Below are positions 2 through 12,014 of a DNA stretch of 12,238 nt, one piece after another (position 1 is the first letter of the stretch; every line of letters begins with the position of its first letter). Location of the stretch: positions 1-12,238 of the forward strand of contig CANFNO010000034.1 in assembly GCA_947447845.1 (NCBI GenBank), in the 5' to 3' direction. A program made the translations under genes and the position numbers. Source of the stretch: Burkholderiales bacterium (GTDB lineage: Bacteria; Pseudomonadota; Gammaproteobacteria; Burkholderiales; Burkholderiaceae). Below the pieces are notes generated by a model. It saw nothing but the letters and a program-made list of their open reading frames with translations. It made no database searches and was not told the origin of the DNA.

Positions 2-361
2 GACGCGGTGCTGAAAAGCGAGCGCTGCTGTGGCGAATCCGGCACTCTGGGCGTGAACCGGCCCGACATCTCCACGCAAATTCGTTTCCGCAAGGAAGAA
101 GAACTGCGCAAGGGCGAAGTCGAGCTGCGGGCACTGACTGCGGTGGATGGCGCACCGGCAGCCAAGGGCAATTTGAAGATTCTGACCAGTTGCCCGAGCT
201 GTCTGCAAGGCCTGACCCGCTACGGTAACGACCTGAACAACGGCCTGCTGGAGGCTGACTACGTGGTGGTCGAGATGGCAAATCTGATTCTGGGCAAGGA
301 CTGGCTGCCCGAGTACGTGCAAAAAGCCAATGCTGGAGGCATTGAGCGGGTGCTTGTCTAG
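2..361 (+). CDS. C-terminal end of an FAD-linked oxidoreductase with CCG Fe-S domain (5' truncated by window)
   Basis: The reading frame is open from the first bases of the window, so this is the last ~119 codons of a longer gene whose start lies upstream. The visible part carries the motif CCGESGTLG near its beginning and SCPSC about 50 residues later. This is the arrangement of the cysteine-rich CCG domain (heterodisulfide-reductase/GlpC type), which holds an iron-sulfur or metal centre that passes electrons from a flavin domain. In Comamonadaceae this ending, with a tail like VVVEMANLILGKDWLPEYV, belongs to very long FAD/FMN-binding oxidases related to D-lactate or D-2-hydroxyglutarate dehydrogenases. 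The FAD-binding portion is not in the window, so the substrate cannot be judged. It ends in TAG, 135 nt before the exoprotein gene. No convincing terminator follows it. The domain call is fairly sure; the exact family is inferred. Confidence 0.82.
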   Translation, partial: DAVLKSERCCGESGTLGVNRPDISTQIRFRKEEELRKGEVELRALTAVDGAPAAKGNLKILTSCPSCLQGLTRYGNDLNNGLLEADYVVVEMANLILGKDWLPEYVQKANAGGIERVLV

Positions 362-496: not shown

Positions 497-3400
497 ATGG
501 GATCTAGCGGTTCGCTGAATCATATTTATCGCACGGTGTGGAACCAGGCGCTCGGCGCCATGGTGGCCGTAGCCGAAGTCGCCACCGGACGCAAAAAGTC
601 GGCAACGGTGTCGGGTCTTGCCAAGGTGGACAGGCGTGTCGGTTGGTCTGCACACCGTCTGCAAAATGCCCTGCTATCGCTTGCCATTGCTTTTGCCTGG
701 GGCGCAATACCAGCGCTGACATTTGCAAATCCCACAGGCGGTGTCGCCATTCAAGGCCAGGCGACCATTACCACCAACGGCAGCAATCTGCTGGTCACCA
801 CGCAAAACGGCGCCGGCCTGAACCACTCGGCCATCAACTGGCAAAGCTTTTCTATTCCCACGGGCAGCACCACCTATTTTCAGCAGCCCAACGCCAGCAG
901 CACCTCGATTAACCGCGTAGTCACCAACACGCCATCACAGATATTCGGAACGTTGGGAAGCAACGGCAATCTGGTACTGGTGAATCAGTCTGGCATTACC
1001 GTGGGTGCGGGTGCCGTGGTGGACACGGCGGGCTTTACCGCGTCGTCTTTGCGCATGAGCGATGCGGACGCCTTGTCGGGCCGGATGCGTTTTGGTGATG
1101 CTGCATCAGCTACTGGCACCGTGTCCGTCATGGGCAGTGTGCTGGCACGCAGCGGTGACGTGGTCCTCATGGGCTCCAGTGTGGACACCGGTAGCAACGC
1201 ACTGGTGCAAGCGCCAAACGGCAACACTGTGCTGGCCGCAGGCCAGCAAATCGAGATCACCGGGCGCGGTCTCGAAGGCATCGTCATGCAGGTGCAGGCG
1301 CCCACGGATAGCGCGGTGAATTTGGGCACGCTAAAGGGCGATGCGGTGGGGATTTTTGCCGGGACGCTGAAGCACAGTGGTTTGATTCAGGCTACGACGG
1401 CGACGCTTGAAGGTGGTAAGGTGGTGCTGAAGGCTGCTCAGCGCGTGGAGGATTCGGGTGTGATCACTGCCTCCGGATCTTCTGGAGGCTCGGTCGATAT
1501 TTCCACAAACCCGACCACCAACGCAGTCAATCCAGGTGCGGTTGTTCAATCTGGATCGATTGACGTGCGTGGCACGACGGCGGCTGGCGGCGCGGTTCAC
1601 GTTCAAACTGATTCGATGCTGGCAACCGCTTCCATTGATGCCAGCGGCGCCAATGGCGGCGGCGTGATCGGCGTGCAGGCAGCACGGCAAGCGATTTCCA
1701 CTTCGTCTGCGCACTACTCCGTCGACGGTGGGACGGGCAAGGGAGGCAGCATTTTGTTGTCTGCGAAAGCGTCCAACTACACCTCGGGAACCTACAGTGC
1801 GACCGGTGCAACGGGGGGTGATATCACTCTGGCAGGCGATGAGATCAAGCTCGCAAGTACCCAACTCGATGCAAGCGGCGTTCATGGCGGTGGCAGTGTT
1901 CGGGTGGGCGGACTGGAGCATGGCGCATCGGGATTTGGCGCATTGGGTGTGAATCTCACCAATGCAAGCAACGTGTATTCCAACAGCCAGATGAGTGTGA
2001 AGGCAGATGCCTTGCAAGATGGCAATGGCGGAAGTCTGGTGCTGTGGGCGGATCAGAATATGCGCGCCAGCGGCAACCTGAGTGCCAAGGGCGGCGCAGC
2101 GGGCGGCGATGGTGGCAATGCCGAGGTGTCAGGGGCCGCATCGCTGGGCTTTAGCGCACTGGCCAACCTGTCGGCATCGCACGGCAAGGCAGGCACCTTG
2201 CTTCTGGATCCGCACAACATTACGGTGACAGCAGGGTCGGCTGGTTGGTCGGGCCTGGGTGGGACTAGCTACCTGGAAATACTTGACCCGACACCGACAG
2301 CCGCAGAGGGTTTCGGAGGCTATCAACCCTTCATCTTGCCCAGTGGAAACATTGTCGTGGCTTCTCCCAATGACGCAGCCATGGCAATTGGCTCCGGTGC
2401 CGTCTACATGTACACGTCGACTGGGACACTTCTTTCGGCCTTGGTCGGAAGCAGCGCAGGCGATCATGTCGGCAGCAGCGGTTTAAGCACCTTTTCCACT
2501 GGCAATGTGCTGGTTCGATCGCCCAACTGGTCCAACGGCACAAACACGACCGCTGGCGCAGTGACGTGGATGAATGGCACGACCGGCGCGCTGTCCACGG
2601 GTACCGCTGGAGGCGCCGTCAGCCTTGGCAACAGCCTTGTCGGCGCATCGATGAATGACCTTGTTGGCAATCAGGTTCTGGTTTCTGGAAGTGCTGCGGT
2701 GGCACTTTCACCCAATTGGACCAACGGCGCAAATGCCGCGGCGGGTGCCGTTTCCTGGTTGAACGGAGCCGACGGGAAACTGAGCAACGGAGCCTTTGGC
2801 GGCGCTATATCGACCGCCAATAGTCTTGTCGGCAGCGCGGCCTCGGATCAGGTCGGGTCTGGCGGGATCACCTGGGGGTTGCTCGGTGGCAACATTGCCA
2901 TCAGCAGTCCGCAGTGGGGCAGTGGTGGGATTTCGGCCAATGCGAAAGGAGCCGTCACCTGGATGAACTGGGCTACTGGCGCGTTGTCCAATGCCGCAAC
3001 GGGCGGGGTGGTTTCAGGGGTTGGGGCTGCACCGGGCAATAGCCTTGTCGGATCGAATCCGGGTGACAGGGTGGGCACTTTTATCCGCAACTATGACTAC
3101 TCGTATGGCACACAATTTTCTTCGCCGAGCAGTATCGATCAGAGCGGTGTTGCTTCGGTCAATGGAAATCTTGTTGTCATAAGTAACAACTGGAACGGAA
3201 CCCGGGGTGCCGTGACGTGGATGAATGGCAGCACGGGCGCATTGTCCAACGGAAGTTCTGGCGGCATTGTCGATGGCACGACAGGCACGGGCAATAGCCT
3301 GGTCGGGTCAGTTGTGGGTGACCGGATTGGAACCGTATCGACCTTTCCCGACCCCACAGGTTCCCCCAATTTGATTGACGAAGTGAGCGGTTTGGTCCCC

Positions 3401-6400
3401 TTGACTAACGGCAACTTTCTGGTTCGAAGCGCTCAGTGGGGCAGCGCTGGCGCACTGTTTGGTGGCAAGGGTGCTGTGACGTGGTTCAACAACGCTTCAG
3501 GCTTGAGTGGGGCCGTAGCTGCGGCCAACAGCATTGTCGGATCTGCCGTAGGCGACCAAGTTGGTGCCGGGCCTGGTAGTCCCTCGACGGCTTACCAGGG
3601 TGTCGTGCTGCTACCCAACAGCAACTACGTAGTCGTGAGCCCGAACTGGGGTGGCGGCAAAGGCGCCGTGACTTGGGGCAATGGCACAAGCGGCACTTTG
3701 GGTGCTGTATCGGGCTTCCCCACTGCGGGTATCGCGTCGAGTTTGACCGGCACTACTACTGGCGATCACATCGGCTCACAGGGCATTCAGCTTCAGTATG
3801 GTGGCAGCAACTATGTCGTGAAAAGTCCGCAGTTCAGCTTCAACAGTCTGACCAACAACGGCGCAGTCTCGTGGATGAATGGCGCTACCGGAGCACTTGC
3901 CGGTGGTGGATTTGCCGGTCAGGTGGATGGCACCAACAGTCTGATCGGAAGCTTTTCAAGCGATGGCGTTGGCGGCGAAGTCATTCCTCTTTACAACTTC
4001 AATTTCCTGGCACGTACGCCCTCGTGGAACGGTGGCAAGGGTGCATTGACCTGGATGAAGGGCGCCACTGGTGAATTGGCCACGAGCACTGTAAACACGC
4101 CGGTCTTTGGTGGCGCGGTGGATGGCATCAGTGCTACGCCTAACAGCCTGGTGGGCTCGGGGCAGTACGACATGTCAGGTATTGCTAACCAGCGTGGACC
4201 ACTTCAAACAGTGACCCAGCTTGGAAATGGCAACTTAATTGTTGGCACGCCGCAGTGGACAAATCCGGGTCTGTCGGGCAGCTATTGGGACGCTTTGGGT
4301 GCGGTGACCTGGATGAACGGTACGACGGGCAAGCTTTCTGACGGCAGCACCGGTGGGCCGATCGGCATTGCCAACAGTTTGGTGGGGGCAAACACTGGAG
4401 ACCAAGTGGGACAGGGTTACGTAGGCGTCGGAATTGTGCCGCTTGTTGGCACCTTCAACGGCAGCAGCGTCGTTTACAACCTGGTCATTCAAAGCCAATG
4501 GTGGAAAAACGGTGTTGCAACCTGGGCCGGTGCCGCGACCTGGATGGATGGCGCCACCGGCCAATTGGTTGGCGGGGCTTCTGGCGGCACCATTTCCAAT
4601 TCCAACAGCCTGGTGGGAACACACGCGAGCGACTTGGCAGGCGATCAGATTCTGCCGATGAACAATGGCAACTATGTCGTCGAAAGTTCTCTATGGGGTG
4701 ATGGCACCAATCTCCAGGTGGGTGCGGTTACCTGGGGTAATGGGCTTAGTGGCGCAGTAGGCGACATCGGCAGCGGCAACAGCCTCGTGGGCGCATTTGC
4801 GAATGATGGTGTGGGTCATTCTGTCTGGCCGAACAATGGCATCGATTTCATTGGCAATAACTACCTCGTTCGAAGCCGATGGAATAGCGGCGCAGGCTCC
4901 TTGACCTGGGTGGATGGTGGCAACGGGCACCTCGTTAACTACACCACAGGCCCCAACATTGGCGGCGTAGTAGCTGCCAGCAATAGCTTGGTCGGTTTGA
5001 CTCAGTCGGATAACGTCGGAGGCAGCAACCTGACGACACTGTGGAACGGCATGGCGGTGTTGGAAAACCAATACTCTGATGGAGGCAAAGGCGCTGTGAC
5101 CTGGATGAATCCAGTCAATGGGACGATGTTTGGTGGAGTGCCTTTTGCAGGAACGGTGTCACCCTCCAACAGCCTTGTGGGGACGTTAAGTGATGTGCCT
5201 GCGGGCGCTAGCGGCGACCATGTCGGGTCCGGTGGCGGCGGTGTGACCGAAATTACAGACTACAGCACTTTTTCGAACTACGTGGTGTCCAGTCCTAGTT
5301 GGTCCAATGGGCTTACTACGGGTGTGGGTGCTGTGACATTTGCCGCGGGTGACACCGGGCGAGTGGGAGCGGTTTCTACGAGCAACAGCCTGGTAGGTAC
5401 CTTGGCCGGAGACTCTGTCGGTTCATGGGGTATTTATCCGGTGACGAATAACGAAACCTTCTGGAATTACTTTGTGCACAGCCCTGATTGGGGTGGGAAT
5501 AAGGGAGCAATCACCTGGATGAATGGGCAAACCGGCGCTTTGAACACAGGGTCGTTGTCTGGCGTAGTCGGTACTTCCAATAGTTTGGTCGGGTCGACCA
5601 CGGGTGATCGGCTGGGGACGTCAAATTCCCGAAACAATGGCGGACTGGAAGCGATTACCAGCTATGCGAATGGGAACCTGTTGGTTCGAAGCGAGTTTTG
5701 GAACGCGAATGCGAGTGCCTTAACCTGGATGAGCGGAGCAAACGGCAGGTTGTCAGATGGGTCCAACGGTGGTGAGGTGTCTCCATCGAACAGTCTGCTG
5801 GGCAGTGTGCCATTCGACAATCTGGCGGGTGGCGTGAATGGGCTTGCGGTTCTTAACGGAAATGGCAACTGGGTTGTCACAAGTCCCGACTGGGATGGCA
5901 GCAAGGGTGCAGCCACCTGGATTGACAGTTCCAATGGACATCTGGCAGATGGAACAACGGGTGGCTTTGTATCGGCCCTAAACAGCCTGGTAGGAAGCGT
6001 TGCCTTCGATTTCGTTGGGGGCGACTACGCCTGTGACTGCACGGGCATACCCGGGGGGATAACTGCGCTTTTTAACGGCAACTATGTAGTCAATAGTCCG
6101 GACGTGGGCGCCCTCACATGGGGTAGCGGCACTGCCGGTGTGGTGGGGACTATCACTGCCGCAAACAGTGCACCGGTGAGCGTAGACCAGATCTATGAGT
6201 ACGGCACTTCTGGAAAGGTATTGGCCGGTAGCGGGTCTGCAAACTCCAATAAGGGTGGCGTCTTTTTGATTGGTGCCGCGGGCAGCACAGGGTTGCCCAC
6301 TTTTGCTACCAATGCTGCAGGTGACGCGTCGGTTGGCGCGGACTGGTTGGCCAATTCGCTGCGAACGGGTACCAACCTGGACTTGCAGGCCAATACCGAC

Positions 6401-9022
6401 ATCACCATCAATTCGACTATTGATGCCAGCGGCGGACAGTTCGCGCCAGGCACTTTAACGCTGCGAGCCGGTCGATCGGTAATTCTCAACGCACCCATAA
6501 CCACCGGTGGAGCTGATCTGGTGGTTAGTGCGGATGACCCGGCTGCGATCAGAGCCAACCGCGATGCAGGGGTTGGTGCTTTTGTCAACAATGCGGGAGC
6601 CAATGCGCTTGCCACGGGTGCGGGAAGGTGGCTTGTCTATGAGTCATCTCCGGCCAATGTCACCAAGGGTGGTTTGGTTCCCACTATGTACCAGTACGGC
6701 TCCGTGTTTGGCGACGCCGTTAACACTGTTAATCCGGTTGGCAGCGGATTTGTTTACGCAAGTGGGCTCGCGGTGAATGCCAACTTTTCGGGGCAACTTT
6801 CCAACCCCTACGGGGCCACCCCAACAGCGACGCTCGGGTACAGTTTGAGCGGTTTGGATGCAAGCGATACAAGCTACACGATTTCCCAGTTTGTGGGCAG
6901 TCCGACATTTTCTTACTGGCCCTTCAACACGCCTACGACAACAGCGGTTGGCACCTATCCCTTGCAGTATTCGGGCGGAATAACTTTGCCGTATGGTTCC
7001 CCACTGGGTGTTGGATCGGCACAAAGTTACGAGGTTACACCTGCGCAACTGACGGTTACGGCCCAAGTGGGCCTGGCTTCCAAGGTCTATGACGGCACGG
7101 CCTCGGCTCTGCTGAATCCGACCTATTTTTCTCTGTCCGGGTTTGCCGCCGGGGAAGGTGCCATCATTACCAAGACGAGCGGCATCTATGGAAGTAAGAA
7201 TGCCGGAAGCGGAATTCTCGTCAGCACGACTTTGACCTCTAGCGACTTTTTGCTGGGTCAAAACACCAGTTTGTCCAACTACATTTTGCCAACTGCTGCG
7301 GCGGTCAATGTAGGTGTAATCTCGCCCTTGGCGCTTACTTTGAACACACCGGTGGTGCGCAAGACATACGATGGAACAACCACCTATACGACAACGGTTT
7401 CTGACCTCGCGGCGCTTTCCGCTGCGCTTGTCACGGGAGACACCGTCAGTTCTGCAACCATCAAATATGCCGACAAAAACGCGGGGCTTGGTAACAAAAC
7501 CGCTGCGATCGCCGGGTTGACCATCAATGATGGAAATGGCGGCAACAACTACAACGTCACGCTCGCGGGCAACACCACCAGCACCATCGACAAAGCGGTT
7601 GTGACACTCACGGCGCCCAGTATCACAAAGACCTACGACGGCACTACGGCCTACACAACTACCGCAGCTGATTTGGCGGCCATGTCGAATGTTTTGGTCA
7701 GTGGTGACAGCGTTGCGTCGGCTACGCTGAGCTATGCCAGCCCGAACGCGGGTAGCGGCAACAAGGTGGTAACGCTTGGTGCGTTCACCATCAACGATGG
7801 CAACGGAGGTGCTAACTACACCTTGACCACGAACGGCAATGCCAACAGCACCATCAACCCGCTGACAGTGCTTTGGACGGGTAACGCAGGCACAGGCTTG
7901 TGGAGTAACACAGGCAACTGGAGCAGTCCGTTTGTACCGGACGGGACCAACGTGATCACGCCGTCGACGCTCAGCGTTACAACGGCCGTGTACGACCTGA
8001 CTGCCCCCACATCGGTGCAGTCGATCAATGCCTCGGGAAGCTTCACACTGCAAAGCGGCGCCCTGAACATCACCGGCGACTTGATAACGCCCAGCTACAC
8101 GCAAACCGGCGGCACTTTGAGCGTGAGTGGCGCACTGACAGTGCAGAACGCCTTCACTCAAACCGCAGGCAATATCGACAAAACGGGACCGGTTTCCATT
8201 ACCCAAGCCATCGGCGACTTGACGGTGGGCAACGTCACCGGCTCCAGCATTACGCTGCAGGCGCCGACGGGCGCCATCAAACAGTGGCCTTCGACGGGTC
8301 TGACAGGACTGGTGACACTCAGAACCACGGGTGGCGCAAGCCTGATGGACGCGGCAAATCGGATATCGGGCTTTGCTGTTGCGGATGTAGTGAGTGGCGG
8401 CGTTAGCACGCGCAGCAGCGGCAACATCGCCCTGACGAATGGGGCAGCGATGGATCTGTCGGGAATCTCGTTGGCAAACGGCAATTTGTCGATTGACAAC
8501 ACAGGCGGCATCAGCAACTCGGTTGCGATCAAAGTGGATGGAGGCACCGTGGACATCAAGTCGCACAGCCCCATCACCATTGGCAACACGGTAACTGCCA
8601 GCGGCAACATCACTCTGGCTGCATTGACGCCGGATGGCACCAGCAACATCACCCTGAATGGGGCGATGACGTCCACCGCAGGTGGCATCTCGATACAGGC
8701 CTACAACAACTTTATCCAAAACAGCAACCTCAGCGCGGCCCTGGCCATTGACGTGAGCACGATTGCAGGCAGCCTGACTTTCGGTCCCGGCGCCTACAGC
8801 ATCGGCAACCCGGTGACCTACACCGTCAATGGCGCGCCCTACATGCCGCCATGGATTGCCTCCACGCTCAGCGGTGGTGCCACCGACTTTGTGGTGGCCT
8901 TCCTGGATCAGTTCCAGGCGGTGCTGGATGCGCAGCAAGCGGCTCCCATTGACGATCCGCTGGGACTGATGCAAAGCAGCCAGGAAGGCATCGTGGTCGA
9001 GGGCGAAATATGCAAACCATGA
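497..9022 (+). CDS. Two-partner-secretion exoprotein (TpsA, filamentous-haemagglutinin-like) with propeller-like repeat array and MBG/YDG domains
   Basis: A secreted surface protein of 2841 residues, most likely an adhesin or biofilm/matrix factor exported by the TpsB protein encoded two genes downstream. Residues 7-35 match the extended signal peptide region of large exoproteins (NHIYRTVWNQALGAMVAVAE, then GRKKS). A hydrophobic core lies at 57-75, with likely cleavage after Ala77 (LTFA before NPTGG). Residues 78-~330 are the TPS/haemagglutinin-activity domain, with NQSGI at 163-167 where NPNGI is typical, then VDTAGFTASSL. Residues ~330-575 are Gly/Ala-rich beta-helix (IDASGANGGG), ending in LLLDPHNITVT. 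About 20 repeats follow (~606-1930), then an MBG-like region (~2102-2183), three YDG domains (2184-2455), WTGNAGTGLWSNTGNW (2460-2475) and a second beta-helix to ~2780. It ends EGEICKP. Only three cysteines are seen (1846, 1848, 2839). No VENN motif or toxin-like C-terminal domain is evident, so a CdiA-type toxin is unlikely. The frame is intact. The TPS assignment is secure; function and binding partner are unknown. Confidence 0.93.
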   Translation: MGSSGSLNHIYRTVWNQALGAMVAVAEVATGRKKSATVSGLAKVDRRVGWSAHRLQNALLSLAIAFAWGAIPALTFANPTGGVAIQGQATITTNGSNLLVTTQNGAGLNHSAINWQSFSIPTGSTTYFQQPNASSTSINRVVTNTPSQIFGTLGSNGNLVLVNQSGITVGAGAVVDTAGFTASSLRMSDADALSGRMRFGDAASATGTVSVMGSVLARSGDVVLMGSSVDTGSNALVQAPNGNTVLAAGQQIEITGRGLEGIVMQVQAPTDSAVNLGTLKGDAVGIFAGTLKHSGLIQATTATLEGGKVVLKAAQRVEDSGVITASGSSGGSVDISTNPTTNAVNPGAVVQSGSIDVRGTTAAGGAVHVQTDSMLATASIDASGANGGGVIGVQAARQAISTSSAHYSVDGGTGKGGSILLSAKASNYTSGTYSATGATGGDITLAGDEIKLASTQLDASGVHGGGSVRVGGLEHGASGFGALGVNLTNASNVYSNSQMSVKADALQDGNGGSLVLWADQNMRASGNLSAKGGAAGGDGGNAEVSGAASLGFSALANLSASHGKAGTLLLDPHNITVTAGSAGWSGLGGTSYLEILDPTPTAAEGFGGYQPFILPSGNIVVASPNDAAMAIGSGAVYMYTSTGTLLSALVGSSAGDHVGSSGLSTFSTGNVLVRSPNWSNGTNTTAGAVTWMNGTTGALSTGTAGGAVSLGNSLVGASMNDLVGNQVLVSGSAAVALSPNWTNGANAAAGAVSWLNGADGKLSNGAFGGAISTANSLVGSAASDQVGSGGITWGLLGGNIAISSPQWGSGGISANAKGAVTWMNWATGALSNAATGGVVSGVGAAPGNSLVGSNPGDRVGTFIRNYDYSYGTQFSSPSSIDQSGVASVNGNLVVISNNWNGTRGAVTWMNGSTGALSNGSSGGIVDGTTGTGNSLVGSVVGDRIGTVSTFPDPTGSPNLIDEVSGLVPLTNGNFLVRSAQWGSAGALFGGKGAVTWFNNASGLSGAVAAANSIVGSAVGDQVGAGPGSPSTAYQGVVLLPNSNYVVVSPNWGGGKGAVTWGNGTSGTLGAVSGFPTAGIASSLTGTTTGDHIGSQGIQLQYGGSNYVVKSPQFSFNSLTNNGAVSWMNGATGALAGGGFAGQVDGTNSLIGSFSSDGVGGEVIPLYNFNFLARTPSWNGGKGALTWMKGATGELATSTVNTPVFGGAVDGISATPNSLVGSGQYDMSGIANQRGPLQTVTQLGNGNLIVGTPQWTNPGLSGSYWDALGAVTWMNGTTGKLSDGSTGGPIGIANSLVGANTGDQVGQGYVGVGIVPLVGTFNGSSVVYNLVIQSQWWKNGVATWAGAATWMDGATGQLVGGASGGTISNSNSLVGTHASDLAGDQILPMNNGNYVVESSLWGDGTNLQVGAVTWGNGLSGAVGDIGSGNSLVGAFANDGVGHSVWPNNGIDFIGNNYLVRSRWNSGAGSLTWVDGGNGHLVNYTTGPNIGGVVAASNSLVGLTQSDNVGGSNLTTLWNGMAVLENQYSDGGKGAVTWMNPVNGTMFGGVPFAGTVSPSNSLVGTLSDVPAGASGDHVGSGGGGVTEITDYSTFSNYVVSSPSWSNGLTTGVGAVTFAAGDTGRVGAVSTSNSLVGTLAGDSVGSWGIYPVTNNETFWNYFVHSPDWGGNKGAITWMNGQTGALNTGSLSGVVGTSNSLVGSTTGDRLGTSNSRNNGGLEAITSYANGNLLVRSEFWNANASALTWMSGANGRLSDGSNGGEVSPSNSLLGSVPFDNLAGGVNGLAVLNGNGNWVVTSPDWDGSKGAATWIDSSNGHLADGTTGGFVSALNSLVGSVAFDFVGGDYACDCTGIPGGITALFNGNYVVNSPDVGALTWGSGTAGVVGTITAANSAPVSVDQIYEYGTSGKVLAGSGSANSNKGGVFLIGAAGSTGLPTFATNAAGDASVGADWLANSLRTGTNLDLQANTDITINSTIDASGGQFAPGTLTLRAGRSVILNAPITTGGADLVVSADDPAAIRANRDAGVGAFVNNAGANALATGAGRWLVYESSPANVTKGGLVPTMYQYGSVFGDAVNTVNPVGSGFVYASGLAVNANFSGQLSNPYGATPTATLGYSLSGLDASDTSYTISQFVGSPTFSYWPFNTPTTTAVGTYPLQYSGGITLPYGSPLGVGSAQSYEVTPAQLTVTAQVGLASKVYDGTASALLNPTYFSLSGFAAGEGAIITKTSGIYGSKNAGSGILVSTTLTSSDFLLGQNTSLSNYILPTAAAVNVGVISPLALTLNTPVVRKTYDGTTTYTTTVSDLAALSAALVTGDTVSSATIKYADKNAGLGNKTAAIAGLTINDGNGGNNYNVTLAGNTTSTIDKAVVTLTAPSITKTYDGTTAYTTTAADLAAMSNVLVSGDSVASATLSYASPNAGSGNKVVTLGAFTINDGNGGANYTLTTNGNANSTINPLTVLWTGNAGTGLWSNTGNWSSPFVPDGTNVITPSTLSVTTAVYDLTAPTSVQSINASGSFTLQSGALNITGDLITPSYTQTGGTLSVSGALTVQNAFTQTAGNIDKTGPVSITQAIGDLTVGNVTGSSITLQAPTGAIKQWPSTGLTGLVTLRTTGGASLMDAANRISGFAVADVVSGGVSTRSSGNIALTNGAAMDLSGISLANGNLSIDNTGGISNSVAIKVDGGTVDIKSHSPITIGNTVTASGNITLAALTPDGTSNITLNGAMTSTAGGISIQAYNNFIQNSNLSAALAIDVSTIAGSLTFGPGAYSIGNPVTYTVNGAPYMPPWIASTLSGGATDFVVAFLDQFQAVLDAQQAAPIDDPLGLMQSSQEGIVVEGEICKP
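2312..6286 (+). repeat. Array of ~20 degenerate ~69-residue (≈207-bp) repeats inside the exoprotein
   Basis: At protein level (residues ~606-1930) the unit reads GDxVG, a variable loop, NGNYVVxSPxW, a short loop, GAVTWxNGxTGxL, a Gly-rich stretch, then NSLVG leading into the next GDxVG. I count 20 GAVTW-like strands; the first (GAVYMY, ~634) and last (GGVFLI, ~1920) are degenerate caps. The NSLVG anchor recurs 19 times (residues 647, 712, 775, 848, 933, 1011, 1081, 1147, 1216, 1293, 1370, 1428, 1496, 1558, 1630, 1695, 1765, 1829, 1890). Spacing is 58-85 residues, mean 69. Length varies mostly in the loops. DNA identity between units is limited to short words such as GTGACCTGGATGAA and AACAGCCT, so the array is old rather than recently amplified. 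Similar repeats probably occur in other large bacterial exoproteins and may have a Pfam DUF entry (DUF5650-like is my uncertain recollection). Confidence 0.9.
6800..7045 (+). other. MBG-like domain within the exoprotein
   Basis: Residues ~2102-2183 show the layout of MBG-type Ig-like modules seen in large bacterial surface proteins: NPYGATPTATLGYSLSGL at the start, VGTYPLQYSGG in the middle and YEVTPAQLTVTA at the end. The module leads directly into the first YDG domain. Such modules are thought to act as spacers or stalks. The call rests on motif resemblance only. Confidence 0.55.
7046..7861 (+). repeat. Three tandem YDG domains in the exoprotein
   Basis: The K-x-YDGT hallmark occurs three times: SKVYDGTAS (~residue 2195), RKTYDGTTTYTTT (~2288) and TKTYDGTTAYTTT (~2378). 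Copies two (2280-2366, bases 7334-7594) and three (2367-2455, bases 7595-7861) are close relatives. Both run from YDGTT.YTTT through DLAA, TGD or SGD and NAG.GNK to TINDGNGG.NY, at nearly identical spacing, and look like a tandem duplication. Copy one (2184-2279) is more divergent. YDG domains are common in bacterial cell-surface proteins next to MBG modules and probably form an extended beta-rich stalk. Confidence 0.75.
8999..9022 (+). promoter_or_regulatory. Translational coupling site between exoprotein and FecR-like genes
   Basis: GAGGG (8999-9003) sits six bases before ATG 9010, inside the last codons of the exoprotein gene, whose TGA stop is 9020-9022. The two frames overlap by 13 nt. 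A second in-frame ATG at 9019 forms an ATGA overlap with the stop codon but is 15 bases from the Shine-Dalgarno, so 9010 is the better start. The arrangement predicts that ribosomes finishing the 8.5-kb exoprotein gene help initiate the FecR-like protein. Confidence 0.65.
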
Positions 9023-10374
9023 CCACACGCGGGCTTGTTGTCCGCATTACCATCGCCGTGCTGGGCCTGCTGCTGTGGCAGGCACCCTCGCTCGCCTGGG
9101 CCCAGAGTGCAGGGGAAGTGGAGTTCTCGCGCGGTGCTGCGGTGGCGCAGACGCCCGGCAAACTGCCACGCACCATGGGCAAAGGCCTGGCGGTGGAGCA
9201 GGGCGACCGGCTGACCACGGCCGAGGGGGCTATGGCCATCGTAAAACTGCAGGACGGTACGCGCCTGACTTTGCGGCCCAACTCCGAGTTGATCATGCAG
9301 ACCTACCACTATGACGGCTCGGTCAGGCAAGACAACAGCATGGTGATGCAATTGCTGCGCGGCGGCTTTCGGGCCATCACAGGGCTGATCTCCAAAGGCT
9401 TACCCAACGCCGCCAAGATCCAGACCGCCACCGCCACCTTGGGTATTCGTGGTACCGACTTTGATGTGCGCCTGTGCGGGCCGGAATGCAAGGCCGAGTC
9501 GGCCAAGGTGCGCGACAAGCCCAAACCCAACGCCATCATCGCCAGTGCCAAGTTGGTGAATGCCAAGGGTGACATATCGGCCCTGGATGGCCAGGGCCAG
9601 AAACGCATGGTCTTTGACGGTGGCTCGGTGTACCCGGGCGACACGGTGCAGACCGGGCCGGGTGCCCGGGTGATCCTGGCATTCCGCGACGACAGCCGCT
9701 TGACGCTGGGGGCCAACACCCAGTTCAAGGTCGATAGCTTTGTCTACGACCAGAAGGCGCCGACCGAGGGCCGCTTCCTGGTGACGCTGCTGCAAGGCTC
9801 GCTGCGTGCGCTCACCGGCTTGATCGGCAAGGCCAACAACCGCAACGTCGGCTTCACCACCCCCACGGCCACCATCGGTATCCGAGGCACCGGCCTGGAC
9901 ATGGATTGCCCTACGGTAGCAGCCTGCAGCTTCTTTACCTGGCTGGGCACGATTGAAGTCAAACCCAATGGCGAGACGGCGCTGCAGGTGCTGTCTGCAG
10001 GCGAGGGGCTCTACGTGGACAAGGACGGCATGCATCCCATCACCGCGCCTACGCTGGATGATTTGCCGCGTCCGGATACCGTGCCGGTTAACGTGCAACA
10101 GTTGTTCTCCTCGGGCGGTGTTTCACCGGATGAGGAGGGCCTGTTTGTCTATGTGCGCGACGGTCATATCCAGATCACCTCCAGCCGTGAGGTATTGGAC
10201 CTGGGTCGTGGTGAAACCGGCTTTGCCGGTGCCGATGGACACACGGGCCGCCCGGACGACATGCCCTTGTTTATCCAGCACGACAGCGTGCCCATGCCCA
10301 ACAGCCTGAACCCGATGCTGGTCAATCTGCTCAACGAAGCTGCCGGCGGTGGCTCCAACAATATGTGCCGTTGA
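9010..10374 (+). CDS. Exported protein with two FecR domains, TPS-operon accessory
   Basis: A 454-residue protein with a Sec signal peptide (hydrophobic 8-24, cleavage likely after Ala31, SLAWA before QSAGEV). Two FecR domains lie in tandem, ~60-160 and ~205-306. Each runs from a GD turn through a Thr-Leu strand (RLTLRPNSEL; RLTLGANTQF) and L.G..RA.TGLI.K to a TATxGIRGT signature (141-149; 286-294). Each signature is followed by a cysteine pair (156/160; 300/306), suggesting one disulfide per domain. A segment at 377-407 (VYVRDGHIQI to LGRGETGF) may be a third, partial unit. Classical FecR regulators are inner-membrane anti-sigma proteins with a cytoplasmic N-terminus beside a sigma factor and a TonB receptor; none of these is present. 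Its place between the exoprotein and its transporter suggests a periplasmic or surface accessory (chaperone, anchor or sensor), which is inference. It ends with NNMCR, a lone penultimate cysteine. Confidence 0.88.
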   Translation: MQTMTTRGLVVRITIAVLGLLLWQAPSLAWAQSAGEVEFSRGAAVAQTPGKLPRTMGKGLAVEQGDRLTTAEGAMAIVKLQDGTRLTLRPNSELIMQTYHYDGSVRQDNSMVMQLLRGGFRAITGLISKGLPNAAKIQTATATLGIRGTDFDVRLCGPECKAESAKVRDKPKPNAIIASAKLVNAKGDISALDGQGQKRMVFDGGSVYPGDTVQTGPGARVILAFRDDSRLTLGANTQFKVDSFVYDQKAPTEGRFLVTLLQGSLRALTGLIGKANNRNVGFTTPTATIGIRGTGLDMDCPTVAACSFFTWLGTIEVKPNGETALQVLSAGEGLYVDKDGMHPITAPTLDDLPRPDTVPVNVQQLFSSGGVSPDEEGLFVYVRDGHIQITSSREVLDLGRGETGFAGADGHTGRPDDMPLFIQHDSVPMPNSLNPMLVNLLNEAAGGGSNNMCR

Positions 10375-10377
10375 GGA
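10373..10377 (+). promoter_or_regulatory. Ribosome binding site that decides the TpsB start
   Basis: GAGGA overlaps the TGA stop of the FecR-like gene and lies eight bases before ATG 10386. The frame could open at GTG 10365, but that codon has no comparable site and would add seven charged residues ahead of the signal peptide. ATG 10386 is therefore chosen. Confidence 0.7.
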
Positions 10378-10385
10378 AACCCAAA

Positions 10386-12014
10386 ATGACACTGTTCAAT
10401 TTGATGGCCCTCTCACCCCAAGGCAAGTCTGCCCGACGGCTGGCGTGCTTTGGGCTTCTGCTGGGTGCCGCTGCCGCACAGGCCCAGCAGGCCATGCCTG
10501 CTGCCACAGGGGCAACCACTGCCTTTCCCATTCAGGGCTTTGAGCTCAAGGGCGACATTCCGCTCACGAGCGATGAAACCACCCGAATCCTGGCGCCCTT
10601 TATCCGGGCCGATGGCAATCTGACCACGTTGCAGCAAGCCGGTGCCGCGCTGGAAGCCGCACTCAAGGAAAAAGGTTATGCCTTGCACCGGGTCACTCTG
10701 CCGCCACAGGAAGTGGGCAAAAAGGTGACCTTTAACGTCATCAAGTTCGTCATCGGCAAGATCACGGTCGAAAGCCAGGGCAAGGTGAGCGAGAAGAACA
10801 TCCGCAGAAGCTTGCCCGAACTGCAGGAGGGCCAAGCGCCCAACTTCCGCAGGCTGGCCGTACAGACAGCGATTGCTAATGAAAATCCGTTCAAGCAGGT
10901 ACAAGCCTCGCTCAAGGAGTCGGACGAGCCGGAAAAGATTGACGTCAAATTGCTGGTTAAGGCCAGTAACCCTTTGACCTTCGCGAGCAGCGTGGCCAAT
11001 ACCGGTTCCGAGGCCACAGGCAACGACCGAGTGGCCTTGGTGCTGGGTCACTCCAATCTGTTCGATCTGGACCACCAGTTCTCGATGGCCTACACCAGCT
11101 CGCTGGAACGCGCGCAAAACGTCAAGCAGCTTGGTTTGAACTACCGCATCCCGCTGTATACCCAAGGTGGCGTGGTCGGCCTGAGTTACACCAGCTCGGA
11201 CGTGGTGGGTAGCTTTGGCAGCTTCAACAGCTCCGGTGCGGGTGAAACCTATGGTGTCAACTACAACCTGTACCTGCCCCCGTTTGGCGGCAGGCGAACC
11301 TACCTGAGTTTTGCGTTGGACGAGAAACTGTTCAACATCAGCAAGATCAACGGGGTGGAGGTGCCAGGGCAGATGCAACGGGGCAGCCGCCCCTTGACGC
11401 TGGGCTACACCGCCAAGGTGGAGTCGGACAAGGCGGTGTGGGGCTACAACGCGGATATCGCCATCAATCTGCCGGGTAGCACTGGCAACACGCTGAGCGC
11501 TTATCAAACTGAGGATGGGCGCATTCAAACGGTGGACTGGAATGTCGTGCACCTGGGTGCCAACTACCTGGCTTCCATGGAGTCGGGCTGGCTTTGGAAC
11601 GTGCGCGGCCAATTGCAGTACAGCGGGACGGCACTGATCTCGGGTGAGCAGTTTGGGCTGGGTGGTGCCGCCTCGGTGCGCGGCACGGGTGAGCGAATCC
11701 TGTCGGGGGACTCGGGTGCGTCCATGACACTGGAGATGACCACGCCCGAAGTGTTCAAAGGTTTGCGCTTGCTGGGCTTTGTAGATGGAGGTTGGCTTGC
11801 CAGCAACAACACCATGGCCACCAGTGCGGGCAAAGCTGCAAGCGATCAGCTGACTAGTGCCGGTCTGGGTCTGCGCTATAGCCTGGGCTGGCTTAACCTG
11901 TCGGCTGACTGGGGCCACATCGTGACTGGAGCCCATCTGCCAGTTAATGGGGGCTCGCTAATTCCCAAGGCCGGAGACGAAAAGCTGCACGTTAACCTTA
12001 CTGCGCGGTTCTAG
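10386..12014 (+). CDS. TpsB outer-membrane transporter of the two-partner secretion system (ShlB/FhaC/HecB family)
   Basis: A 542-residue protein, a usual size for TpsB. It should form the outer-membrane pore that recognises and translocates the exoprotein encoded upstream. The signal peptide has a basic start and a hydrophobic core (CFGLLLGAAAAQA) and is probably cut after Ala33. Residues ~47-121 fit POTRA1 (FPIQGFELKGD, then a helix rich in AALE, then KGYALHRVTLP) and ~122-193 fit POTRA2 (IGKITVES to IDVKLLVKASN). The remainder (~197-542) has the alternating pattern of a 16-strand barrel (HSNLFDLDHQFSMAYTSS; LNYRIPLY; LGFVDGGW) and ends in the C-terminal Phe typical of outer-membrane barrels. 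The Omp85/TpsB L6 signature is VRGTGER at 431-437; FhaC and most relatives have an aromatic after VRG. An obvious linker helix (H1) before POTRA1 is not evident; ~34-46 is short and Ala-rich. It follows the FecR-like gene by 11 nt in the same operon. Confidence 0.93.
   Translation: MTLFNLMALSPQGKSARRLACFGLLLGAAAAQAQQAMPAATGATTAFPIQGFELKGDIPLTSDETTRILAPFIRADGNLTTLQQAGAALEAALKEKGYALHRVTLPPQEVGKKVTFNVIKFVIGKITVESQGKVSEKNIRRSLPELQEGQAPNFRRLAVQTAIANENPFKQVQASLKESDEPEKIDVKLLVKASNPLTFASSVANTGSEATGNDRVALVLGHSNLFDLDHQFSMAYTSSLERAQNVKQLGLNYRIPLYTQGGVVGLSYTSSDVVGSFGSFNSSGAGETYGVNYNLYLPPFGGRRTYLSFALDEKLFNISKINGVEVPGQMQRGSRPLTLGYTAKVESDKAVWGYNADIAINLPGSTGNTLSAYQTEDGRIQTVDWNVVHLGANYLASMESGWLWNVRGQLQYSGTALISGEQFGLGGAASVRGTGERILSGDSGASMTLEMTTPEVFKGLRLLGFVDGGWLASNNTMATSAGKAASDQLTSAGLGLRYSLGWLNLSADWGHIVTGAHLPVNGGSLIPKAGDEKLHVNLTARF

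Follow-up and report, generated by a model that had tools for sequence, protein, structure and literature searches.

The TpsA exoproteins of two-partner secretion are typically right-handed beta-helices. Beta-propellers form rings of four to twelve blades, and their lineages tend towards one number, as stated in the available portions of PMC6805158 and PMC9218822. The latter, in the same portion, calls Ph1500, whose 12 blades are reached by oligomerisation, the largest known to date; partial accounts also give sortilin a 10-blade propeller and name a hypothetical 11-bladed propeller among the architectures new to TED (PMC7618865; CATH 4.4, PMC11701635). The word "propeller" is absent from the available part of a review of two-partner secretion (PMC5422565). 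DUF5650 (PF18888) is described in its Pfam line as a repeat "of unknown function", and a search of the literature library available for DUF5650 and PF18888 found no paper. The window considered here, the whole 12,238-nucleotide stretch of Burkholderiales DNA that was analysed, encodes a TpsA-type exoprotein with a long DUF5650 array. The favoured reading, held with about even confidence, is that this inserted array of 20 calcium-free FG-GAP_2-like blades forms a single oversized ring, carried by a beta-helical stalk as its binding head.

Judged from its sequence, the open reading frame at 497-9022 is a two-partner-secreted exoprotein, with a TPS domain in the protein and a TpsB gene adjacent to it (see the table). 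Residues 7-344 match structures of EtpA, the "Adhesin" 2odl and heme/hemopexin-binding protein, and the TPS region aligns with EtpA 8vba at E 2.9e-34 (phmmer). The genes for the FecR-domain protein and TpsB lie downstream of the exoprotein frame. A FecR-domain gene also adjoins the Gallionellaceae relative L001.

Table. Features of the exoprotein gene, its repeat array and its neighbours in the window (nucleotide positions)
Feature	Position	Strand	Basis or detail
TpsA-type exoprotein, 2841 aa	497..9022	+	Pfam: ESPR, TPS, DUF5650 (18 stretches), YDG (3 stretches)
ESPR extended signal peptide	518..619	+	PF13018, residues 8-41, E 3.4e-11
TPS secretion domain	734..1465	+	PF05860, residues 80-323, E 3.7e-22
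Entry junction TLLLDPHNITV, ahead of array	2195..2227	+	flank common to 30 loci of the phylum
Blade 1; its outer strand, SYLEILDP, would complete the last blade	2267..2434	+	unit HMM match from model position 15
Blades 2-19	2435..6163	+	DUF5650 matches, parsing, structure model of residues 577-1776
Unit starts, blades 2-10	2435, 2630, 2819, 3038, 3293, 3527, 3737, 3938, 4142	+	
Unit starts, blades 11-19	4373, 4604, 4778, 4982, 5168, 5384, 5579, 5789, 5981	+	
Blade 20, degenerate closing unit (NSAPVS...GKVLAGSG...GGVFLIG)	6164..6274	+	by eye
Exit junction TNLDLQANTDITI	6371..6409	+	exit motif
YDG domain (best of 3 stretches)	7595..7831	+	PF18657, residues 2367-2445
FecR-domain protein	9010..10374	+	PF04773, E 4.4e-22
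TpsB transporter	10365..12014	+	PF03865 ShlB, E 1.1e-26; PF08479 POTRA_2, E 7.5e-09

The exoprotein matches DUF5650 over its 18 stretches with 528.1 bits (E 1.1e-162; gathering cut-off 25 bits). A unit HMM trained on the DUF5650 family delimits 19 units at residues 609-1887, and a degenerate closing unit at residues 1890-1926, read by eye and also found by pattern, brings the total to 20; this closing unit has a counterpart in all 22 of the closest proteins listed (15 by pattern, seven by eye). By anatomy, the array extends from about nucleotide 2267, at the first outer strand, to about 6274. The original prediction of some 20 repeats at 2312..6286 within a two-partner-secreted exoprotein thus agrees with the DUF5650 match and with the ESPR, the TPS domain and the TpsB gene. 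Units are spaced 58-85 residues apart, except for a single 135-residue step that contains two units. The layout of blade 1 recurs in complete small relatives, its strand boundaries being set by analogy. Pairwise identity among the 19 units averages 40% (maximum 55%). Recent amplification of the array was rejected, because Tandem Repeats Finder returned no tandem repeats in the window DNA (0 rows), and in view of this mean identity.

The DUF5650 unit, like those of FG-GAP_2 and integrin alpha, has a GD..G turn, a VV.SP/VVGAP strand and a GAV strand. In profile-profile comparison the unit scores 27.0 against an FG-GAP_2 profile, in the same phase, the highest score among 150 shuffles being 17.2; this profile was built from 127 units of FG-GAP_2 loci rather than the Pfam seed, and the shuffle controls had 150 rows each where the real profile had 400. 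The score against the FG-GAP (PF01839) profile, 9.7, falls within the shuffles (median 7.9, maximum 16.3). With a two-unit profile, over-gapped at 239 columns, the scores are 25.2 for FG-GAP_2 (prob 37), 15.5 for PD40, 12.9 for FG-GAP and 9.4 for RCC1. No PF14312 (FG-GAP_2) match was found in the whole window protein at E up to 1 (cut-off 23 bits), nor in the two array end pieces, P0192 or P0210 at E up to 10; the first blades of relatives P0214 and P0038 exceed the FG-GAP_2 cut-off (two of six proteins tested). The Asp-rich calcium loop, which had been described as missing, is indeed absent: the pattern D.[DN].[DG]..[DE] occurs nowhere in the window array and in 13 of 4529 units of the fetched proteins, compared with 87/132 FG-GAP units and 3/127 FG-GAP_2 units. 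Membership of the calcium-type FG-GAP family was rejected on the shuffle scores and the absent loop. The proposed FG-GAP/integrin-type blades are supported, in the sense that the unit resembles the calcium-free FG-GAP_2 kind, which scores above all shuffles, rather than the calcium-binding FG-GAP repeats.

The array interrupts a TpsA protein. Of 30 loci sharing the flank, four carry DUF5650 downstream and 26 have no unit downstream; because only these four carry it, the array is, on sequence comparison, an insertion in the TpsA protein. The LDP motif continues in 24 of the 26 (the exceptions are L109, which diverges, and the unread L104), and these array-free loci probably continue as beta-helix. 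Among 120 relatives, 71 have the entry motif immediately upstream of the array, compared with 33 among 1200 random control stretches, and 69 have the exit motif within 170 residues of the array's end (control 116/1200). Entry and exit belong to one junction, which array-free homologues cross without an array.

The relatives are the best 120 of 877, 2377 and 1145 proteins from three protein searches, and the array sizes found among them depend on the length limits and on score. Among the matches listed, the HMM finds both an N-terminal start and a cap in 102 arrays, with array size taken as unit matches plus one and possibly one blade off. The eight that came from the third search were inspected by eye; the start is absent in P0261, P0302 and P0344, and the other five have 6 (P0296), 7 (P0342) or 8 blades (P0265, P0307, P0309). 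The remaining 94 have 11-16 or 18 blades, again among the matches listed. Complete arrays of 9 and 10 blades were not seen, a size that falls between the length limits of two of the searches. In eight genomes from a single bacterial family, the complete arrays comprise 11, 12 or 13 blades, and every array has a single start and a single cap (closing units counted by eye; one L128 blade uncalled by the HMM). In the window protein and its 21 closest relatives listed, the count is nearly fixed, at 20 blades in 18 of 22 and 21 in four. Array sizes in multiples of 7 were rejected by this range. No match to P0192 was found in phage records; plasmid records gave one match, to a Hymenobacter plasmid.

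These sizes bear on whether the FG-GAP-type blades instead form a tandem of two or three canonical propellers, without a marked boundary, as in the 6+7+7 division first proposed for the 20 blades. This division is unlikely. Complete arrays of 6, 7 and 8 blades do exist, a 15-blade WD40 array was predicted as 7+8 (PMC9218822, available part), and FG-GAP_2 arrays with at least three matches have exactly seven in 9 of 14 cases and never more (10 of 18 when four weakly matching frames are added). A true gap at 9-10 blades, such as tandem propellers would predict for 9-11, may also exist. Against the division, the 11-blade arrays of L124 and L125 could not be two rings of 6-8 (5+6 is thinkable), the complete arrays of 11, 12 and 13 blades have a single start and a single cap, and no internal start or cap appears in the arrays read by eye. 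Long arrays occur in calcium-type FG-GAP proteins too, which was counted against a one-ring reading.

Structure prediction supports propeller-type blades. The window model covers residues 577-1776, without the last two blades, at middling global confidence; the model of P0192, a complete 13-blade relative, is confident (pLDDT 89, pTM 0.83). A blade topology is predicted, and propeller and integrin proteins lead the 50 matches listed per model, integrin alpha propellers being the best matches of the AlphaFold models. A TpsA beta-helix or other solenoid continuing through the array was rejected on these matches and is highly improbable: TpsA proteins are typically beta-helical, and sequence matches to solved TpsA structures reach only residues 7-344, but no TpsA or beta-helix protein is named among the 50 matches listed per model (some axonemal chains were not identified), and profile similarity points to FG-GAP_2. 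In a library of viral structures, the 50 matches listed include FG-GAP- and integrin-named proteins among others, with TM-scores to the query of at most 0.26. AlphaFold may fail on highly repetitive propellers, according to the available part of PMC9218822.

Closure and blades per turn were derived from alignment statistics and toy geometry. In toy rings, 6-8 blades should match a 7-blade ring at 0-4.7 Å; 10-14 Å is expected for a 13-ring, and for a circular 20-ring 12.9-19.2 Å (7 blades) or 9.8-14.3 Å (6 blades). Among the 50 matches listed for each, the window model aligns with integrins at 8.8-12.5 Å over 277-318 residues, and the P0192 model reaches a lowest rmsd of 8.4 Å against 7- and 8-blade structures. 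Tandem propellers would be expected to fit within about 5 Å, and in the predicted models, among the matches listed, no run of 6-8 consecutive blades closely fits a structure with 7 or 8 blades, which also speaks against 6+7+7; one viral predicted structure matches P0192 at 6.0 Å, over only 219 columns. The integrin blade matches of both models run in order at 8.8-13.0 Å, and because of these values a larger ring or a shallow arc is indicated rather than rings of 6-8 blades.

An open shallow superhelix or arc without closure is judged improbable, although a shallow open spiral would likewise give high rmsd and the wide range of array sizes requires no closure rule. The window model, of moderate confidence, is tighter than the toy 20-ring, with its last third more curved and nearer a 10-16-ring, as is possible for a spiral. 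Opposed to this are the near-fixed 20-21 blades, which suit a closed assembly; the start and cap, read as the parts of one split blade, in complete arrays of 6-18 blades; and the single junction that array-free homologues pass. In P0192 the N-terminal strand (residues 37-42) is modelled as paired, its partner not being told, and both model ends align together in 5 of 38 integrin matches.

In the favoured single ring, each unit would supply three strands of one blade, completed by the first strand of the next unit. One blade would be made up of the first outer strand together with the last three, like the velcro closure of integrin propellers, and such a shared closing blade would therefore place entry and exit side by side at a single junction of the TpsA beta-helix. 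The 20 blades would then form one ring, perhaps oval or nearly closed, rather than three canonical propellers. Secreted by TpsB, the protein would carry this ring on a stalk of beta-helix and YDG, exposed at the surface as a head for binding or adhesion, a putative ligand-binding role that is reasonable. The fuller claim, of a single-chain closed 20-blade ring in the window and a family with one blade type in closed rings of 6 to about 20 blades, is tentative and somewhat doubtful. If true, the ring would exceed the largest one named in the papers cited here, and ring size would be tunable by gain or loss of blades. The DUF5650 series (6-8, 11-16, 18 and 20-21 blades) would offer a natural set for asking what fixes ring size; DUF5650, whose function Pfam lists as unknown, would gain a fold, and two-partner-secreted proteins would be seen to carry large integrin-like heads, which bears on the choice of ligands.

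Compared with known propellers, the modelled DUF5650 blades align in order with those of integrin alpha and lack the calcium loop as FG-GAP_2 units do. Unlike the 7-blade FG-GAP_2 and integrin propellers, the window protein has 20 blades and a shallower predicted curvature, and its own repeats are not recognised by the Pfam FG-GAP_2 model. Like sortilin, Ph1500 and the TED 11-bladed propeller, the array would be an enlarged propeller ring; the 11-blade DUF5650 arrays equal the TED example in count. In contrast to the oligomeric Ph1500, DUF5650 arrays have FG-GAP-type blades in one chain, with 6-8, 11-16 or 18 in small proteins and 20-21 in the window group. The window protein resembles the TpsA adhesins FHA and EtpA in its ESPR, TPS domain and TpsB partner, and differs from both in carrying a predicted propeller-type module between two helix-region motifs.

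The repeat array originally noticed in the window protein, a TpsA-type exoprotein, is borne out as a block of the Pfam family DUF5650 (PF18888) in which 20 units are counted. The first, which begins near residue 590, lacks the NSLVG strand; 18 units are full, and the closing one is degenerate. Mean identity between units is 40%, and no repeats were detected in the window DNA by Tandem Repeats Finder. The last full blade carries a CDC motif (GDYACDC; positions 6020-6040, residues 1842-1848) that is kept in at least 90% of aligned close relatives, in an array where just 0.1% of residues are cysteine. Judged from sequence, the motif is a possible disulfide or metal site near ring closure.

Features of the window and of the DUF5650 array
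Feature	Position	Strand	Remark
DUF3400 oxidoreductase-like gene, 3' end	2-361		directly upstream of TpsA gene; sub-threshold CCG match
TpsA exoprotein, 2841 aa	497-9022	+	
FecR-domain protein	9010-10374	+	ends overlap both TpsA and TpsB reading frames
TpsB transporter	10365-12014	+	
18 full units	start residues from 647 (first) to 1829 (last)		
Degenerate closing unit	residues 1890-1926		

Among the 22 proteins closest to the window protein (its own sequence included), 18 have 20 blades and four have 21 (P0005, P0009, P0011, P0021). These counts add first blades missed by the HMM in P0002, P0005, and P0015; closing units were found by pattern in 15 proteins and by eye in seven. The best partners of most window blades lie in register in P0002 and P0003, and the register fades with distance. 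Among the matches listed, 94 complete arrays have 11-16 or 18 blades by HMM, and small complete proteins have, by eye, six (P0296), seven (P0342), or eight (P0265, P0307, P0309). Several small proteins with DUF5650 (P0144, P0152, P0165, P0216) have a precomputed PF14720 match. Two separate arrays per protein also occur (unit matches 13+16 in P0025 and P0029, 13+13 in P0032, 12+14 in P0036, 12+13 in P0038, and 11+14 in P0041), with a cadherin domain between the two in P0038. One bacterial family has DUF5650 in 9 of 233 genomes; one of these nine is a fragment, and the remaining eight arrays (L121-L128) have 13, 12, 12, 11, 11, 12, 12, and 12 blades, with closing units assigned by eye. An 11-blade array cannot form two rings of six to eight.

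The proposed reading of the repeats as FG-GAP/integrin-like propeller blades is supported and narrowed to FG-GAP_2. The suggested 6+7+7 split is not: among the 50 matches listed per model, no structure fits better than 8.4 Å for P0192 (a complete 13-blade relative) or 8.8 Å for the window. With no fit under these values, small rings are not what AlphaFold predicts for either protein, and AlphaFold is able to split arrays, as in a 15-blade WD40 array divided 7+8 (available portion of PMC9218822). The listed integrin matches to P0192 span about seven blades, in order, with an rmsd of 11.1-11.8 Å in 32 of 38 and 12.4-13.0 Å in six. Calculated for rings of an assumed blade geometry, the rmsd expected for seven blades is 3.1-3.8 Å in an 8-ring, 10.2-14.0 Å in a 13-ring (six blades, 7.6-10.5 Å), and 12.9-19.2 Å in a circular 20-ring (six blades, 9.8-14.3 Å). 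Five of the 38 listed integrin matches use the extreme N- and C-terminal strands of P0192 together (34-35 to 765-768), and residues 37-42 are a paired strand in the model; both features would indirectly fit velcro closure. Listed integrin matches to the window model (8.8-12.5 Å) are tighter than a circular 20-ring predicts, and the modelled part looks like a 10- to 16-ring, which counts against a circular 20-ring. Confidence in this model is moderate, so the window's ring could be oval or spiral, or the model could be wrong. One oversized ring is the best reading for the window protein, at about even odds.

The array is an insertion. A 91-aa flank on its N-terminal side is matched in 46 of the 249 genomes from the phylum, where DUF5650 itself is rare (over the cut-off in 5 of 398). 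Four of 30 flank loci examined (L087, L101, L102, L108) have DUF5650 directly after the LDP motif at the entry junction; the other 26 have no DUF5650 unit downstream in the sequence examined, and in 24 of these the motif runs on without the array. Among the matches listed, the entry motif stands just before the array in 71 of 120 relatives (versus 33 of 1200 random stretches), the exit motif just after it in 69 (versus 116 of 1200), and both in 57. That the array enters and leaves at a single junction agrees with a domain whose two ends lie together. Beyond TpsA, the module is found in proteins that carry T9SS, S-layer homology, or cadherin domains.

In the TpsA protein, an ESPR signal peptide and a TPS domain are accompanied by 18 stretches that match DUF5650 and three that match YDG; secretion through the adjoining TpsB follows from the presence of the TPS domain together with the order of the genes. 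In a Gallionellaceae relative (L001) the gene order is TpsA, TpsB, FecR; in the window, FecR lies between TpsA and TpsB. A 794-aa minus-strand open frame (6644-9028) antisense to the 3' part of TpsA is probably a compositional shadow. One genome has the TPS domain and the array split over two overlapping frames (L117:1659-3284 and 3152-9379), a frameshift or sequencing error. A stalk-borne ring of integrin-type blades suggests, from fold and location, a putative binding or adhesion head.

A search of the available literature collection found no paper on DUF5650 or PF18888. The largest propeller stated in the available portion of PMC9218822 is the oligomeric 12-blade Ph1500, and searches on 9- to 14-bladed, large, or giant propellers gave nothing further on natural rings of more than 12 blades among the matches listed; nor did the listed literature on large propellers contain the DUF5650 link, the size series, or the TpsA insertion. 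A hypothetical 11-bladed propeller is mentioned in the available text of TED (PMC7618865), and likewise of CATH 4.4 (PMC11701635), so oversized predicted rings are partly foreshadowed by TED. A 6406-aa frame (G019:C5:63974-78757) carries many calcium-type FG-GAP repeats, neighbours often lying about 71 aa apart, and is a further example of a very long array. Unlike DUF5650 arrays, the FG-GAP_2 arrays examined never exceed seven matches and have exactly seven in 9 of 14 cases (10 of 18 once frames that match weakly are included). Departure from this rule of seven is not unique to DUF5650, because long calcium-type FG-GAP arrays exist.
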